Source: Methylotuvimicrobium alcaliphilum 20Z
GTDB lineage: Bacteria; Pseudomonadota; Gammaproteobacteria; Methylococcales; Methylomonadaceae
DNA length: 64,000 nucleotides
Assembly (NCBI RefSeq): GCF_000968535.2
Contig: NC_016112.1
Coordinates: forward strand, 4,588,001-4,652,000
Direction of reading: 5' to 3'
Positions 4,082 to 64,000 of the stretch are shown here, one piece after another (positions within the stretch are counted from its first letter, which is position 1; the number at the start of each line of letters is the position of its first letter). The notes beneath the pieces are model-generated. The model ran no database searches. It was not told the origin of the DNA and saw nothing but the letters and a program-made list of their open reading frames with translations. Made by a program: the position numbers and the translations under genes.

Positions 4082-4900
4082 ATGGGAATACTCGAACAAC
4101 TTCGCACCGAAGCCGCCAAGAAACAACAGGATCAGTTTTCGCAAAAGGAACTCGACCAGCAATTGGCCGCTAATTATCGACGTGACATCCTGCCTCGCAT
4201 GCAGCAGGCTTTTCGTTTCATGAAAGAGCTGGTCGATCATCTCAATTTTTTGGAACACGCGATCGAAGTCGAAAACTACAGCGATCTGTATCCGCAATTC
4301 GGCAGGCTGAAGCAGACCAACTATAAAATCAATACCGATGGCATCATGGGTTTTACCGATATCAATAAGCTGATGCAGATCAATGTGTCGTATTCCTGTG
4401 TCGGTGAAGGCGAATTTTATCTGCCGCGGGAAGGAAAGGGCGCGATCGAGCGGGAAATTTCCTTCCTGCATGAAAAAAAACTCAATTTCGACTGGAAACC
4501 CTTGCCTATGCGAGAGGGCCGCGTTTGTACGCAATTTCGAATACAACGATCTGTTCCAGTATTTCTGCGGTTTGAAGTCGATTATCAGCAGTCCAAAATC
4601 AAACTGCAAATACGCAATCATTTCAATTTCGATGTGTTTGACAAGGTTTTCTTGCCCGAGGAAATCAATTACGAATTGCTCGATGAAGTAACCAGATTCA
4701 TGCTTCGCAAGGATCATGACTTCATTCGTCTATCTATTTCAAGTGAGCACCTGCAAGACATCCGGCAGCGATTGGAGCAGCACAAACGCGAGCAGGATGC
4801 ATTGCAGCGGCGGATTCAGCAGGAAGATTCTGAATTTAAACCCCGTGAGGACAAGCCTTGGTTGGCGCGTCTGTTACCGTCCAAAAAACGCGATGGATAA
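4082..4900 (+). CDS. Conserved-looking hypothetical protein, 272 aa
   Basis: I do not recognise this family. The chosen start (MGILEQLRTEAAKKQQDQ) gives 272 residues; an alternative start 20 codons upstream at 4022 is in frame but adds an unpromising leader. No signal peptide or membrane segment is visible. The N-terminal half is a mixed helical region. The C-terminal 60 residues form a charged helical or coiled-coil stretch (DIRQRLEQHKREQDALQRR) ending in a basic tail (PWLARLLPSKKRDG). A cytoplasmic protein is likely. It stands alone, with repeats on both sides. No strong Shine-Dalgarno sequence is seen. Confidence 0.7.
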   Translation: MGILEQLRTEAAKKQQDQFSQKELDQQLAANYRRDILPRMQQAFRFMKELVDHLNFLEHAIEVENYSDLYPQFGRLKQTNYKINTDGIMGFTDINKLMQINVSYSCVGEGEFYLPREGKGAIEREISFLHEKKLNFDWKPLPMREGRVCTQFRIQRSVPVFLRFEVDYQQSKIKLQIRNHFNFDVFDKVFLPEEINYELLDEVTRFMLRKDHDFIRLSISSEHLQDIRQRLEQHKREQDALQRRIQQEDSEFKPREDKPWLARLLPSKKRDG

Positions 4901-59930: not shown

Positions 59931-60317
59931 ATGAAATTTTTAAGAAAGGTATTGTTATCTCTGGCTATTGCTAGCTCTATGGGCGCTTTTGCTACCCCTG
60001 TAATGGCTGAAAGCGATCCAGGCAGAATTTCATATGAGCCTGCAGAAGCAATCAAATTGACTTCCGAAAAAATTCAAGCTGCGATCGACGCAGTTGCAGC
60101 CGGTTCTTCGGCCGATGAAGTGGCTGCTTTAGTCAAAGAAGCTCTGGATATGAGCAAAGAAATTAATGCCAATGACAAGGTTGACGTTGCTCGTGCACGC
60201 GCGAATCGTCCACTGAAAAAAGCTCGCAGTGCCTCTAGAAAAGGATCTTTGGATGGTGTCGATGAAGCTCTGCAAAGCGCTTTGAAAAAGTATAGCGAAT
60301 TACCTGGCTTAATTTAA
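59931..60317 (+). CDS. Small exported helical protein, 128 aa
   Basis: A 128-residue protein with a signal peptide (MKFLRKVLLSLAIASSMGAF to VMA-ES) and a mature domain that appears all-helical and charged (AIKLTSEKIQAAIDAVAAGS, EVAALVKEALDMSKEINAND, GVDEALQSALKKYSEL). A short basic stretch (RARANRPLKKARSASRKGS) lies in the middle. No family recognised; a periplasmic protein is likely. GAGGA lies about 10 nt upstream. It has its own promoter and terminator. Confidence 0.85.
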   Translation: MKFLRKVLLSLAIASSMGAFATPVMAESDPGRISYEPAEAIKLTSEKIQAAIDAVAAGSSADEVAALVKEALDMSKEINANDKVDVARARANRPLKKARSASRKGSLDGVDEALQSALKKYSELPGLI

Positions 60318-60341
60318 TTATTTAAATTATTAGCTGTATAG

Positions 60342-60367
60342 AAAGGGCGCTTTTAGCGCCCTTTTTT
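60342..60367 (+). terminator. Rho-independent terminator of the small exported protein gene
   Basis: Stem AAAGGGCGC (60342-60350), loop TTTTA, GCGCCCTTT, then a T run. It lies 25 nt after the stop. Confidence 0.9.
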
Positions 60368-60511
60368 ATGACTTGAATTCAAGATTTAATTAATCACCGA
60401 TGGTGTCTATCTGGTGAAATTGGCTGAAGCTTTCTTATTAATGATTTGAACGGATAAAGACCTTAAATGCCGCTGTTTGTAGACATCAGCGTCTAAATTA
60501 AAATGTTGAAA

Positions 60512-60534
60512 TGGCGGAGGGAGAGGGATTCGAA
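60512..60534 (-). other. tRNA-Ser-like 3' end: attachment-site candidate of a prophage/island
   Basis: Read on the minus strand, the 23 nt parse as T-loop TTCGAAT, T-stem CCCTC, acceptor strand TCCCTCC, discriminator G and CCA, exactly a tRNA 3' end. G73 and this acceptor fit tRNA-Ser. The rest of the tRNA is missing on the right-hand side, where phage genes begin. This is the short direct repeat expected at one end of an element integrated in a tRNA gene; the intact gene should lie beyond 64000. Confidence 0.8.
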
Positions 60535-60855
60535 TAATAAGTTATTTTAAATATAAAACAGTATATTACAGACTTTAACAAAGCAATATACCGTTGCTTA
60601 TACCGTCTATTAAAAATGCCGAACATGTTCGGCATCTGCGTATCTGTCAGCTTAACGCACAATGCACACCTCATGTGGCGCATCACACACCTAGACAATA
60701 ACGGTTCAGGGCAAAATTTTATTGTTCACGATTAGCGAATAATCAAAACGCTAGCATGATTTCGTGCCAACTTGCCGAAAGCCACGAATAACAAGGCTTA
60801 CAGCTAGGCATAAATGTTGATATGGGTATCGTTTCCATTAATGAAACAATAATTG
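60535..60855. other. Island-end non-coding region
   Basis: AT-rich, with the phage terminator at 60609-60635. It also carries a short sequence (GGCATAAATGTTGATAT near 60808) that recurs at about 63545 next to the endonuclease gene end. No gene is supported. Confidence 0.55.
60609..60635 (-). terminator. Terminator of the phage gene block
   Basis: A perfect 20-bp palindrome, arms ATGCCGAACA/TGTTCGGCAT (60616-60635), followed on the minus strand by TTTTTA. It would end transcription coming from the tape-measure operon. Confidence 0.75.
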
Positions 60856-61011
60856 CTAAGTTTGTTTGTTGTCCGATTTTCGCCGGCGACGCCCATGCAG
60901 CGGATCGAACCCAATTAAGTTCGGCATCGCGGCGCGCGCGGTGCCAATGCTGGTTTTCATTTGCTTGACCGTTGCTTGATCGTTCCCCATCGCGCGCGCG
61001 ATTAAATTCAT
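60856..61011 (-). CDS. Small phage protein whose C-terminus duplicates the endonuclease tail
   Basis: A 51-residue frame starting MNLIARAMGNDQATVKQ. Its ATG overlaps the tape-measure stop (TAATG), suggesting translational coupling. The last 17 residues, FDPLHGRRRRKSDNKQT, are identical to the C-terminus of the AP2/HNH endonuclease encoded at 63565 onward, and the DNA is nearly identical through the stop codon. The first 33 residues are unrelated to it. It may be the remnant of a phage tail gene whose 3' end was replaced by the endonuclease tail. I cannot assign a function. Confidence 0.65.
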   Translation of the reverse strand: MNLIARAMGNDQATVKQMKTSIGTARAAMPNLIGFDPLHGRRRRKSDNKQT

Positions 61012-63485
61012 TATTGCATTACGCGACTGGCACGCTCGAGTTCTCGAAGCATTTCGCGGGTTTGTTCGTTGTCGTCGAATTGTCCGGATATTTTTTGATT
61101 GCCGAGTTTCAAATCAAGCGTGATCGTTTCTCTCGCGCGTGTCTCCACGCTCATTTTCTGCGTGTTTTCTGGTAGACCGGACGCTAATTTCTGTATTCTG
61201 TCCTCTAGCGTAAATTCGCTGCTCTTTATTCCGATGCCGGTTTTTATAGCTCTAAAAACTTCTTGATTGTATTGCGCAATGATTTTGTTGATATCGCGGC
61301 CTGCAGCCTCTAGCTGATCGATTGCGTCTTTAGTTTCAGCGCTAAACTGATATGAGAATCCAGCGCGTGTCTGCTTATTCTCATGCGGGACATTCATGAC
61401 CGATTGCATGTCGGCTTGCTGCTGAGCCATGCTCATGTAAGCCATTTCGAGTTTGGATAGCGATTGCGCATGCTGGTTGGCGCCGTCTCTTCCTTTATTA
61501 TGGAAATCATCCAGTGCATTGGTCGCGGTAATGATCGCGCGGCCGGTTTCATCGTAAGCGATCTTGACGCCGTATTGTGCCGCTTCGTGTTGCAGCGCGG
61601 CCGGGACCACGCCGTTATTCGCATCGATGACGGTTTTCGCGTATGACGTGAACGAGCGTTGTAGGTCTTCGGTAGTCGCAATGCCGCTGGATCTTATTTT
61701 CTCGAATGCCGCTTTTGCTTTGTCCGCTGCTGCCTGCAATTGAGCGGCGGATTCTACTCCAAGGTCTGAAAATGCGCGTCGAATCTCTTCGGTTTCGATG
61801 TTTTTTAGCGCCTGATTTAGCTCGTCGGTTTTATTGATCCCCGCGTCAAAAGCGTCGATTAATGCTTGTTTAAATGCAGACAAATCGGTGTCTCTGAGTT
61901 TTTTTAGTCCTTCAGTTACCGACGTAACCGACTCGTCAGTCCCATCGGACCAAGCCCTAAATTTTTGCAGCGTTATCTCAGCCTCGTTGCCTATTTTCGT
62001 TAATTCGCCGACGGTTTTACCGGATTCACCAACAAATTCAGCCTGGCTAACGGTCGCTGCAAGCACTTCTGCATTGTAATCGCGTAATTTTTGCGCCGCC
62101 GCTGCGATATATCCCTGCTGCTCATCAAAAACGATCGATCCATCTTTAACTGCCGCGTCTAAGCCGGCCATGCTCGTGATAGTTATGCCTGTGGCAGCAG
62201 ACAATTCCTTGAAACGATCTTGAAGACGTTGGGAGCTGTCTGCTGCGCTAGATTCGGCGTCGGCTAATTTTTCCTTTGCGGTAACCAACTGCAATATTTT
62301 CCCACCAACATCGATAATCGAGGCGGCTAATGCCGCATAAGGGATCGCTTTAATTGCCAAACCTAGCCTAGATGCAGCGGCCGCCGCTGCGGTATTGGCT
62401 GCTGCCGATGCACTGGTCGCTACTGAATAAGCGGCAGTCGCCGACGCACCCGATAAAAACGCTTTCGTCGTCGTAACGACAGCAGTTGCGACATTTTTGA
62501 ACCCGGCGATATATTCGCCGAATTTCAGCATCAACCAAACTTTTGCTAAATTTGTTATAGCCCCGGCGTATTCTTGAATAAACTGGACGGTGCCATTGAA
62601 TGTGGCGGTAGATGCCTCTGCAAATCCTCGCAAGCTGTTGATCAATGTATCGAAATCTATTTTTTCGACGAATGATAAAAATGCATCACCGGCATTTTTT
62701 AACGCCGATGCTAGCAATTCACTGAATCGTGTGATTGCTCCGGAGTCCGAAAGTCTTTGAATAAAATTCGCAAACCGCGTGTTTAAATCAGTCAGTACCG
62801 GGATTATTGCGCCCCCGATTTTTTCGCGAACGTCGGTGAAGCGTTTGGACACTAAATCCAGCGCCCCGGCCAAGCCTTTGCCCGCCGCTTCGGCGACACC
62901 GCCGACTTGCCCGGACACCGCTTCGAGAATAACGCCCTGCGCCTCGGCTTGCCGGCCAGTCTCGACGAGTGATTTGATCAGCTCTTTTTGCTGGTCGGTA
63001 AATGTGACGCCCGAACGGCTCAGAGCCGTTAGCCCTTTAACGGGATCTTCCAGCGCTTTGCCGAGCTGCACCGCGTTTGTTTCTACCGAACCGAAACCAG
63101 CCTCAGCCAAGTCCAACGCTAGCATCAAGGTCGTTTCAAACGCGTCTTTACCGACTTTTTTGAAGGTCAGAAGCTCATTAGCCGCGTCCCGAATTTCCTC
63201 AGCATTGCCGTTCGTCGCCTCGTCGAGCCGCTTCGACATTTCGACGATTTCATCGGCTGTAAGCCCGGCCGCTCCGCCGGTGGCTTTGATGGTCTGATCG
63301 AGCTTGAGGTATTGTGTTTCGAGGTTTTTAGCGTCCTCGATCGAGGCCGATAGAAATTTACCCGAGAAAAAGCCGGCTATCGCGGTAGCGATCTTGCCGG
63401 CATTGTTTTTTATCGAGTCCAGAACAGAAGATGCTTTATCCTCCGCATTAATTCTAATTTTGAGTGCAAGATCTCGAACAGACAT
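61011..63485 (-). CDS. Phage tail length tape-measure protein
   Basis: An 824-residue protein with the features of tape-measure proteins of long-tailed phages. The N-terminal start is MSVRDLALKIRINAEDKASS. A conserved central block follows (LTADEIVEMSKRLDEATNG, ANELLTFKKVGKDAFETTL, AVQLGKALEDPVKGLTALSRSG). Ala-rich hydrophobic helices lie around residues 310-410 (AASRLGLAIKAIPYAALAAS) and a helical C-terminus ends the protein. AAGGAAA precedes the ATG. It sets tail length and helps DNA delivery. The gene is intact, but distal-tail genes that normally follow are absent: only one small frame lies between it and the island end. Confidence 0.92.
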   Translation of the reverse strand: MSVRDLALKIRINAEDKASSVLDSIKNNAGKIATAIAGFFSGKFLSASIEDAKNLETQYLKLDQTIKATGGAAGLTADEIVEMSKRLDEATNGNAEEIRDAANELLTFKKVGKDAFETTLMLALDLAEAGFGSVETNAVQLGKALEDPVKGLTALSRSGVTFTDQQKELIKSLVETGRQAEAQGVILEAVSGQVGGVAEAAGKGLAGALDLVSKRFTDVREKIGGAIIPVLTDLNTRFANFIQRLSDSGAITRFSELLASALKNAGDAFLSFVEKIDFDTLINSLRGFAEASTATFNGTVQFIQEYAGAITNLAKVWLMLKFGEYIAGFKNVATAVVTTTKAFLSGASATAAYSVATSASAAANTAAAAAASRLGLAIKAIPYAALAASIIDVGGKILQLVTAKEKLADAESSAADSSQRLQDRFKELSAATGITITSMAGLDAAVKDGSIVFDEQQGYIAAAAQKLRDYNAEVLAATVSQAEFVGESGKTVGELTKIGNEAEITLQKFRAWSDGTDESVTSVTEGLKKLRDTDLSAFKQALIDAFDAGINKTDELNQALKNIETEEIRRAFSDLGVESAAQLQAAADKAKAAFEKIRSSGIATTEDLQRSFTSYAKTVIDANNGVVPAALQHEAAQYGVKIAYDETGRAIITATNALDDFHNKGRDGANQHAQSLSKLEMAYMSMAQQQADMQSVMNVPHENKQTRAGFSYQFSAETKDAIDQLEAAGRDINKIIAQYNQEVFRAIKTGIGIKSSEFTLEDRIQKLASGLPENTQKMSVETRARETITLDLKLGNQKISGQFDDNEQTREMLRELERASRVMQ

Positions 63486-63564
63486 TTTTTTTCCTTTATG
63501 TAAAAATTTTATTTAATGAATTGGCCTTTATGCCGCTTGATCTGGGCATAAATTTTGATATAGG

Positions 63565-64000
63565 TTAAGTTTGTTTGTTGTCCGATTTTCGCCGGCGGCG
63601 CCCATGTAGCGGATCGAACCCAAGATCACGATTAGCCTTTGACCTTGCGGCTATTGCATCGAGCTTGTCGTCAAAGTAACCAAGGTGGATTGTTTTGTAA
63701 CGCACCATTATCGAGGCATGCCATTTGTTTTTGTGCCGGTCCCAAGAGACACCCACAAAGCCAGAGCTATTGCGTTTAGTCATGGCCAGGCTTCGCATAT
63801 TTTCGATTCTGCTCACCTCTTTTAGGTTGGACCAGGCGTTATTGGTCCCATCTCTGTCTCGGTGCATGATATCGCCGACAGGCCAACGTCCAGTCATGTA
63901 GAAAAAAATAAGTCGGCTAAGCATGTAAGCTTTACCTAAAATAGATACTCGTATGTAAGTATGCCCCCTTTGATTAGTAAAAAATGCGCCTATAGGTTTG
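63565..64000 (-). CDS. HNH endonuclease with AP2-type DNA-binding domain, 5' end outside the window
   Basis: The frame is open to the window edge, so the N-terminus is missing (about 145 residues visible). An HNH_3-like core is present (RLIFFYMTGRWPVGDIMHRDRDGTNNAWSNLKEVS, in part), in which the usual IDHxNG has become IMHRDRDG. It is followed by an AP2-like domain (SSGFVGVSWDRHKNKWHASI; KTIHLGYFDDKLDAIAARSKANRDLG). Such proteins are phage-borne homing-type endonucleases. An internal ATG at 63924 is probably not the true start because conserved sequence (YIRVSILGKAYM) precedes it. Its last codons are duplicated at 60856-60910. Confidence 0.9.
   Translation of the reverse strand, partial: KPIGAFFTNQRGHTYIRVSILGKAYMLSRLIFFYMTGRWPVGDIMHRDRDGTNNAWSNLKEVSRIENMRSLAMTKRNSSGFVGVSWDRHKNKWHASIMVRYKTIHLGYFDDKLDAIAARSKANRDLGFDPLHGRRRRKSDNKQT

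Follow-up and report, generated by a model that had tools for sequence, protein, structure and literature searches.

The PLE satellites of Vibrio cholerae encode a tape-measure protein (TMP) and a tail-assembly chaperone (TAC), and PLE11 additionally encodes a baseplate-hub protein (PMC12987554). The PLE11 virions are reported to contain the satellite's TMP, not the helper's, and deletion of tmp to lower transduction by 96% in PLE1, 99% in PLE4 and about 99.9% in PLE11 (PMC12987554). By its authors' account, this work of 2026 was the first to show tail manipulation by a satellite, in PLE (PMC12987554). Here we describe an element at the tRNA-Ser(CGA) gene of Methylotuvimicrobium alcaliphilum 20Z (source genome G000, two contigs, 4.8 Mb) that carries a TMP gene of its own. 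One end lies in the window, which is the whole analyzed stretch of 64,000 nucleotides (G000:C2:4588001-4652000), and the element extends rightward beyond it. Positions given as L003:n correspond to window position 60000+n.

Predicted TMP genes are reported also in cf-PICIs and putative satellites of E. coli (PMC12987554), and putative TMPs in capsid-bearing E. coli satellites were noted already in 2023 (PMC10448857). The P4-like family is described with seven components, of which delta/Ogr is almost never missing (PMC8628076). In the literature screened by titles and abstract beginnings, with subscription papers and preprints outside the scope, we recognized no description of a TMP in a satellite of the Ogr/C4 type. 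We put the probability at roughly 0.66 that the present element is a complete phage satellite with P4 logic that puts its own TMP into helper tails.

The tRNA fragment in the window is one end of a complete 14.8-kb element that is bounded by att repeats and is itself integrated in the 3′ end of tRNA-Ser(CGA). Window positions 60512-60534 equal the 3′ 23 nt of this tRNA letter for letter, CCA included, and are part of a longer repeat.

60501..60534: attL, direct repeat of the tRNA-Ser(CGA) 3′ end, 34 nt.

The second copy (G000:C2:4663328-4663361) is identical at 32 of 34 nt with a spacing of 14,827, and overlaps the intact tRNA-Ser(CGA) gene, which lies right of the window on the minus strand (G000:C2:4663339-4663428, L003:15339-15428). 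The right end of the element is window position 75361 (G000:C2:4663361). When window 60400-64000 was searched against its own genome at E≤0.001, this tRNA repeat was the sole non-self match (E 1.3e-6). A tyrosine integrase of 391 aa adjoins the intact tRNA-Ser (L003:14012-15187; PF22022 120 bits, PF00589 48.8 bits).

A preliminary description of the window had recognized the 23-nt tRNA-Ser end and an element integrated there, and had pointed rightward for the intact tRNA-Ser, the integrase and the 23-nt repeat. All of them are found 14.8 kb to the right. What it had named as contrary, a tRNA-Ser without a phage-type neighbor or the lack of an integrase, is not what we see, since the element adjoins the tRNA and the integrase is present. 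It had also taken the element as truncated at this end, which finds no support, given the intact att copy and a colinear element in a sister species (locus L035) that has the same end with the 23-nt repeat of the same tRNA. The absence of distal tail and lysis genes, which it read as shortening, is normal in phage satellites, and the gene set is that of a satellite. The unusual feature is that a satellite has one tail gene, not that the remaining tail genes are absent.

Transcription was thought to run toward the junction and end at a strong terminator. The TMP and HNH genes do run that way, but the position of the strong hairpin (GGGCGCTTTTAGCGCCC, 60345-60361) is beyond the element's boundary. 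It also accompanies the same chromosomal gene in two (L139, L140) of three sister genomes that keep only a scar of the element, and L138 is unmatched. Because it is outside the element and kept beside this gene, we read it as the terminator of the host gene. A terminator scan of 60250-61100, which did not list this hairpin, gave within the element one weak site (60771-60750) versus 1.3 expected in shuffles.

Twenty element proteins, in frames that we chose, were scanned with Pfam and PHROGs, and the TMP is the sole structural protein recognized among them; nothing in this set matched a capsid, portal, terminase or lysis family. Leftward from the integrase the order is putative HicB, HicA, C4 RNA, DUF7673, BRO/antirepressor, small genes, int-alpA RNA, AlpA-like protein, DUF927-type primase/helicase, g6436, g6025, g5694, g5014, Ogr/Delta, a 63-aa open reading frame (ORF), HNH+AP2 and TMP. 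Ogr/Delta, on the opposite strand, scores 44.8 bits with PF04606 (cut-off 26.3). Its cysteine spacing is C-X2-C-X22-C-X5-C, and that of P2 Ogr is given as CX2CX22CX4C (PMC3931495).

The C4 antisense RNA (RF01695, 60.3 bits) is at L003:12436-12517 and the int-alpA RNA (RF02996, 51.5 bits) at L003:10393-10461. The AlpA-like protein has 18.9 bits with PF05930 (cut-off 21) and a PHROG excisionase/regulator match at 5.8e-5, and the primase/helicase matches DUF927 (19.1 bits, cut-off 22.6) and VapE-like (14.1 bits), both weakly. HicA matches PF07927. Its putative partner HicB (117 aa) is named by gene position, with PHD_like (E 0.067) as the only Pfam match and a match to PHROG 12841 (function unknown).

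The element DNA had no match to plasmids and phages by megablast. PADLOC on 10 element proteins gave just two weak matches (E about 0.009), both for the coiled-coil protein g5014. This late gene has no relative among viral contigs or phages, and g6025 has none among viral contigs. A cluster of GGAACACAG-CTGTGTTCC palindromes is located just upstream of the C4 RNA (L003:12697-13026), and these are perhaps the operators of the immunity operon.

The tail gene is flanked by parts of a nuclease gene and a short relic frame.

61011..63485, minus strand: intact gene of the TMP, 824 aa, by PF06791 and PHROGs.
63565..64155, minus strand (the window ends at 64000): HNH_3 + AP2 homing-type endonuclease, 196 aa, with AP2 below the Pfam cut-off.
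60857..60914: copy 1 of a 58-nt direct repeat, a copy of the HNH 3′ end.
63566..63623: copy 2 of the 58-nt direct repeat, within the HNH gene at its 3′ end.
60856..61011, minus strand: relic frame of 51 codons, overlapping the TMP stop codon (TAATG).

The TMP scores 43.2 bits with TMP_2 (PF06791, cut-off 30.2) and matches seven PHROG tape-measure families. Six genomes of the genus were searched, one of them (G093) 79% complete, and the TMP is present in two. In G037 (L035) the colinear element stands at the same tRNA, with 20 of 20 query proteins found and the 23-nt tRNA repeat at its far end, and the two TMPs are 83-84% identical. Their residues 1-645 have 17 nonsynonymous versus 30 synonymous differences (1464.5 and 470.5 sites; Fisher p 6.6e-9, omega 0.18) and are under purifying selection.

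Residues ~650-800 are swapped between the species: identities are few there, and the length changes in frame three times. The final 25 residues show just two differences. The relic frame beside the TMP is decayed in G037. That the TMP frame stays open through the C-terminal exchange while this adjacent frame decayed argues for a working protein.

The other sister species keep less. A match covering tRNA-Ser was found in five of the six genomes (none in G093), and three have scars there. With proteins of the G000 element alone as queries, the scars in G010, G060 and G078 hold, respectively, the int start with putative hicB and hicA, putative hicB and hicA with the HNH end, and a decayed hicA. 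The scar coordinates are L138:6291-7288, L140:6130-6702 and L139:11157-11304. HicA thus remains in all scars and its putative partner in two of three, the pair of G010 being still 98% and 94% identical; the two may be an addiction module that outlives the satellite. Also near tRNA-Ser is an interspersed repeat of ~40-60 nt (L003:15508-15566, 75508-75566 in window numbering, beyond its end). At least 22 to 43 matches per genome, with scored candidates limited to 40, occur in the six genomes, and almost all of these belong to this repeat.

These scars, and a lone TMP followed by the relic of a possible next gene, would also be left by a full prophage at this tRNA that lost its head, distal tail and lysis genes, the TMP being debris. 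We consider such a remnant quite unlikely. The replication, immunity and late-activator functions are of the satellite type, and the intact TMP shows purifying selection in the comparison of two species, in one of which the frame next to it decayed. Recent movement between species affected parts of the element, and related elements (below) are in the same size class of 11.7-18.3 kb between repeats. Moreover, what the scars show, with the queries named, consists of int, HicA and its putative partner, and the HNH end.

The recent movement is seen in the synonymous divergence (dS) between G000 and G037. Twelve shared genes have low values: ogr, the 63-aa ORF and hicA 0, putative hicB 0.007, g6025 0.011, g10590 0.013, HNH 0.036, g5694 0.057, TMP residues 1-645 0.067, bro 0.092, g6436 0.097 and DUF7673 0.113. 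Several of these genes are short, so the individual values are rough. Since the 12 range over 0-0.11 and two chromosomal flanking genes have 0.19 and 0.35, the element is by this measure a mosaic, parts of which appear to have moved or recombined after the species split. The AlpA-like gene, g8778 and the primase gave no finite dS, and the TMP C-terminus is diverged.

The two copies of the 58-nt repeat are 97% identical, one on either side of the TMP gene. The relic frame consists of ~31 codons of unplaced origin and the last ~20 codons copied from the HNH 3′ end, and it matched no family significantly. The ~31 codons may stem from the tail gene that followed the TMP gene in the source phage. 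Because the TMP stop codon overlaps the start of this frame, which ends in the HNH copy, the captured phage segment, unlike the element, does look cut. We read the repeats and the relic together as a capture scar, in which recombination at the HNH copies would have imported the TMP and the start of the next gene. Nuclease genes are described at exchange boundaries, and the TMP gene of ICP1 is described as containing an HNH-3 nuclease (PMC10448857).

The same flanking copies and the same precedent would suit a TMP imported by HNH homing or ordinary recombination with no role in the satellite. This we hold very unlikely in view of the omega of 0.18 over residues 1-645, the C-terminal exchange that altered the length in frame and left the gene open, and the presence of other TMPs among the satellites of the bacterial family.

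The source phage was sought by the TMP. Among phage records 126 match, none at 80% coverage, and the best 30 matches are confined to residues 1-322. For the middle part there is a weak match to a single phage, Pseudoalteromonas HS6 (two records), and none to a viral contig. A relative is encoded at 52 viral loci, with the match in the best rows staying within residues 1-363, and two scans of genome contigs gave 0 loci and then 7 remote loci. A TMP profile from a two-row alignment found 4 of 237 family genomes at E 1e-10, two of them close, and at 1e-30 one of 369 class genomes, G000 itself, in a sample that excluded G037. Since this TMP has 824 aa and no phage relative of full length turned up, its effect on tail length is unpredictable.

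Across the bacterial family, the primase is in 23 of 151 genomes, and among 20 primase neighborhoods examined, the 19 besides L035 had no relative of this TMP or of other TMP queries. Ogr/Delta is in 28 of 237 genomes (29 matches), and 20 of its loci were examined in addition to those of G000, G037 and G106. Three of the 20 (L185, L186, L193) adjoin P2-type capsid genes, which shows that the family has P2-like prophages with an Ogr gene.

Relatives of g6025, g5694 or g5014 occur in 11 of 60 mapped loci, or 12 loci with the G000 element. A TMP is in five of the 12 (the G000 element, L035, L191, L196, L199) and a gpS-like tail-completion gene (PF05069) in two (L194, L196). Some of the 12 are interrupted where the contig or the retrieved stretch ends, and a TMP unlike the queries would escape. 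The TMPs are of three Pfam families: PF06791 (G000, and G037 by 84% identity), PF10145 (L191 83 bits, L199 133 bits) and PF20155 (L196 102 bits). Family scans found PF10145 in 41 and PF20155 in 31 of 237 genomes. Twenty PF10145 regions, chosen mostly for short frames, comprise 11 Mu-like prophages, one region in the P2-like prophage L185/L282, six satellite-like regions (L263-266, L270, L273), L275 with an integrase fragment alone on a 5.4-kb contig, and L279, which was assigned to neither class.

Six further TMP elements in two other genera have a direct repeat at both ends with one copy at or beside a tRNA, and 11.7-18.3 kb between the repeats.

G014:C34 element: 12.7 kb, 17-nt repeat about 30 nt outside tRNA-Leu.
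G202 element: 14.3 kb, repeat of 17 nt in tRNA-Leu + 22 nt beyond.
G193 element: 18.3 kb, repeats of 30, 47 and 17 nt, reaching into tRNA-Leu.
G187 element: 11.7 kb, 22-nt repeat about 50 nt outside tRNA-Leu.
G014:C38 element: 13.1 kb, 46-nt repeat, tRNA-Met.
G061 element: 13.3 kb, 48-nt repeat, tRNA-Met.

Their TMPs belong to other groups, which suggests repeated capture. PHROG scans covered 61 of their 97 ORFs and gave in the G014:C34, G202 and G193 elements no further structural gene besides the gpS gene of G193. For the other three, head-protease and major-head-protein matches, each family with one member, were among the 25 of 41 families listed; we ascribe them to G061, in which an HK97-type capsid gene is located by tblastn. 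C4 and int-alpA RNAs were each found in four of the six loci, and another scan of seven loci, L035 included, gave C4 in seven and int-alpA in three. A related gene of ~100 aa directly precedes the TMP in L263-266, L270, L273, L275 and L279. By its position, as in the PLE tac-tmp order, it may encode a TAC, and its member in L270 matched no PHROG family among the matches listed.

The L191 TMP (579 aa) is 64% identical over 439 residues to that of a P2-like prophage in G169, lacks beyond the aligned part the ~10 tandem 36-residue repeats of the latter, and has Peduoviridae (phiO18P, C5a) among its phage relatives. It is shorter than four relatives checked (592, 636, 640 and 956 aa), three of the differences being small. 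Satellite TMPs of 546-549 aa compare with 611 aa in SfV and 687 aa in L279. On these comparisons we rejected the idea that satellite TMPs are invariably much shorter than their counterparts in phages.

Some observations concern these other satellites themselves. L264:6194-11221 (G061) and also L263, L265 and L266 are satellites of the capsid-forming kind. They encode a major head protein of HK97 type, a TMP of 549 aa and possibly a tail chaperone; the tRNA-Met repeats were examined for G061 alone among them. In L287 (G202), starting near position 4700, the satellite is directly followed by another integrase and by repeated sequence of the att side, so that elements may stand in tandem in one tRNA-Leu. 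L196:6136-7392 (G193) is an exact repeat of at least 1257 nt over a transposase-like frame of 444 aa (by eye), with a second copy 12.6 kb away outside the satellite, and is probably an insertion sequence inside it. In G125 one DUF927 satellite core is present twice (L045, L046), with a different integrase and at a different site each time.

C4 is the immunity RNA type of P4 and P1, where a C4-controlled antirepressor operon is the mode of immunity. From the parts of the G000 element we infer the following course, the present ability to integrate included. The integrase would insert the satellite at the tRNA and restore the tRNA 3′ end, and the C4 antisense RNA would silence the antirepressor operon. 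Upon entry of a helper phage, the AlpA-like protein and the antirepressor would release the element and the primase/helicase would replicate it. Ogr/Delta, of the helper or the satellite, would then switch on the late genes, possibly through the P2-type motif TTGT-N12-ACAA upstream of HNH-TMP. Finally, the satellite TMP would replace the helper TMP in tails otherwise built from helper proteins. The resulting chimeric tails would fit satellite particles and might have another length or tip. In our judgment, such substitution of the PLE kind is most likely here.

The P2 late promoters have TGT-N12-ACA sites and require Ogr (PMC3931495). TTGT-N12-ACAA occurs three times in the element versus 0.21 expected by simple shuffles, and four times in the 20-kb L003 versus 0.34 by dinucleotide shuffles. 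One site is in the 331-nt gap upstream of HNH-TMP (L003:4307-4326), with a chance of about 1% by shuffling the gap. It is the sole motif site common to G037, where the stretch is 97% identical anyway. In P4, as a control, one of two matches is just upstream of sid. The motif upstream of HNH-TMP is suggestive, not proof, of late activation.

Several points weigh against a P4-logic satellite with its own tail protein. Of the two other motif sites in the element, one falls in the palindromic repeats that precede the C4 RNA and one within the integrase gene. In P2, neither TTGT-N12-ACAA (one match) nor TGT-N12-ACA (five matches) hits the three annotated activator stretches, and the exact pattern is absent from the satellites L191, L199 and L196, the single match of L191 being outside the element. 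The AlpA and DUF927 scores fall below the Pfam cut-offs, and psu (PF07455) and epsilon (PF10554) are not among the Pfam matches of the 20 proteins. Several element genes diverged like the flanks or more (dS: g10840 0.18, g5014 0.36, int 0.43, g9552 0.51). A helper was not found in G000 by search for a second Ogr, a P2-type capsid or a second TMP (own sequence, PF10145, PF20155), other helper types lying outside the search. Finally, neither a TAC nor a baseplate-hub gene was recognized beside the TMP, and PLE11 has both. The neighbor is HNH, no TAC family matched, and tblastn with three candidate TACs was negative in L003, where a divergent TAC could escape as TACs are poorly conserved.

A lone TMP without recognized TAC or hub genes would fit also an interference weapon, a non-productive competitor that poisons the helper's tail assembly and is not built into satellite particles. 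Interference with tail assembly by proteins of mobile elements is published (PMC11364771; Rta in PMC12987554). The purifying selection over 645 residues and the conserved last ~25 across the swapped segment look instead like a working structural protein, and the reported PLE tmp deletions cost transduction (PMC12987554). We regard the weapon as unlikely.

A wider view is tentative and in our estimate somewhat short of even odds. The Ogr/C4-type satellites of the family would have captured single TMPs from unrelated phages repeatedly and in separate events, keeping the N-terminal part and exchanging the C-terminal one. Such a TMP would be an interchangeable ruler and plug that refits stolen tails and may set the usable helper or host. 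If true, tail re-engineering would be a general satellite strategy on par with the redirection of capsid size. In any case, an intact and selected TMP occurs here in a satellite type unrelated to PLE, with Ogr/Delta and C4 RNA, and similar elements with TMPs occur in two further genera. Whether satellites generally rebuild tails thereby becomes directly testable, and a solitary tail gene next to a piece of tRNA is not necessarily what a prophage left behind.

Compared with the known systems, the cf-PICIs and E. coli satellites with TMPs differ by their capsid genes, none of which is among the 20 proteins of the G000 element, while G061 has an HK97-type one. The immI/C4-ant operon of P1 is similar in that the C4 RNA lies upstream of a BRO/Ant-type antirepressor gene, and differs in that a DUF7673 gene intervenes in the G000 element. 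The P4 satellite and its family (PMC8628076) share the integrase, Ogr/Delta, a primase/helicase and, by weak matches here, the AlpA-like protein, are similar in size (P4 11.6 kb), and differ in that the G000 primase is DUF927-type and a TMP is carried. Of the P4-like components the integrase and delta/Ogr (PF04606) are present. The alpha primase (PF03288) is not among the Pfam matches of the element proteins, and sid has no PHROG match of that kind in scans made without that paper's custom Sid profile. The element appears to work like a P4-type satellite yet departs from the P4-like list in alpha, psu and epsilon. Unlike PLE, it has no recognized Rta, TAC or BhuB and does have Ogr/Delta and a C4 RNA. 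Like PLE1, PLE4 and PLE11, it is, as far as its gene content tells, an integrated satellite with a TMP of its own.

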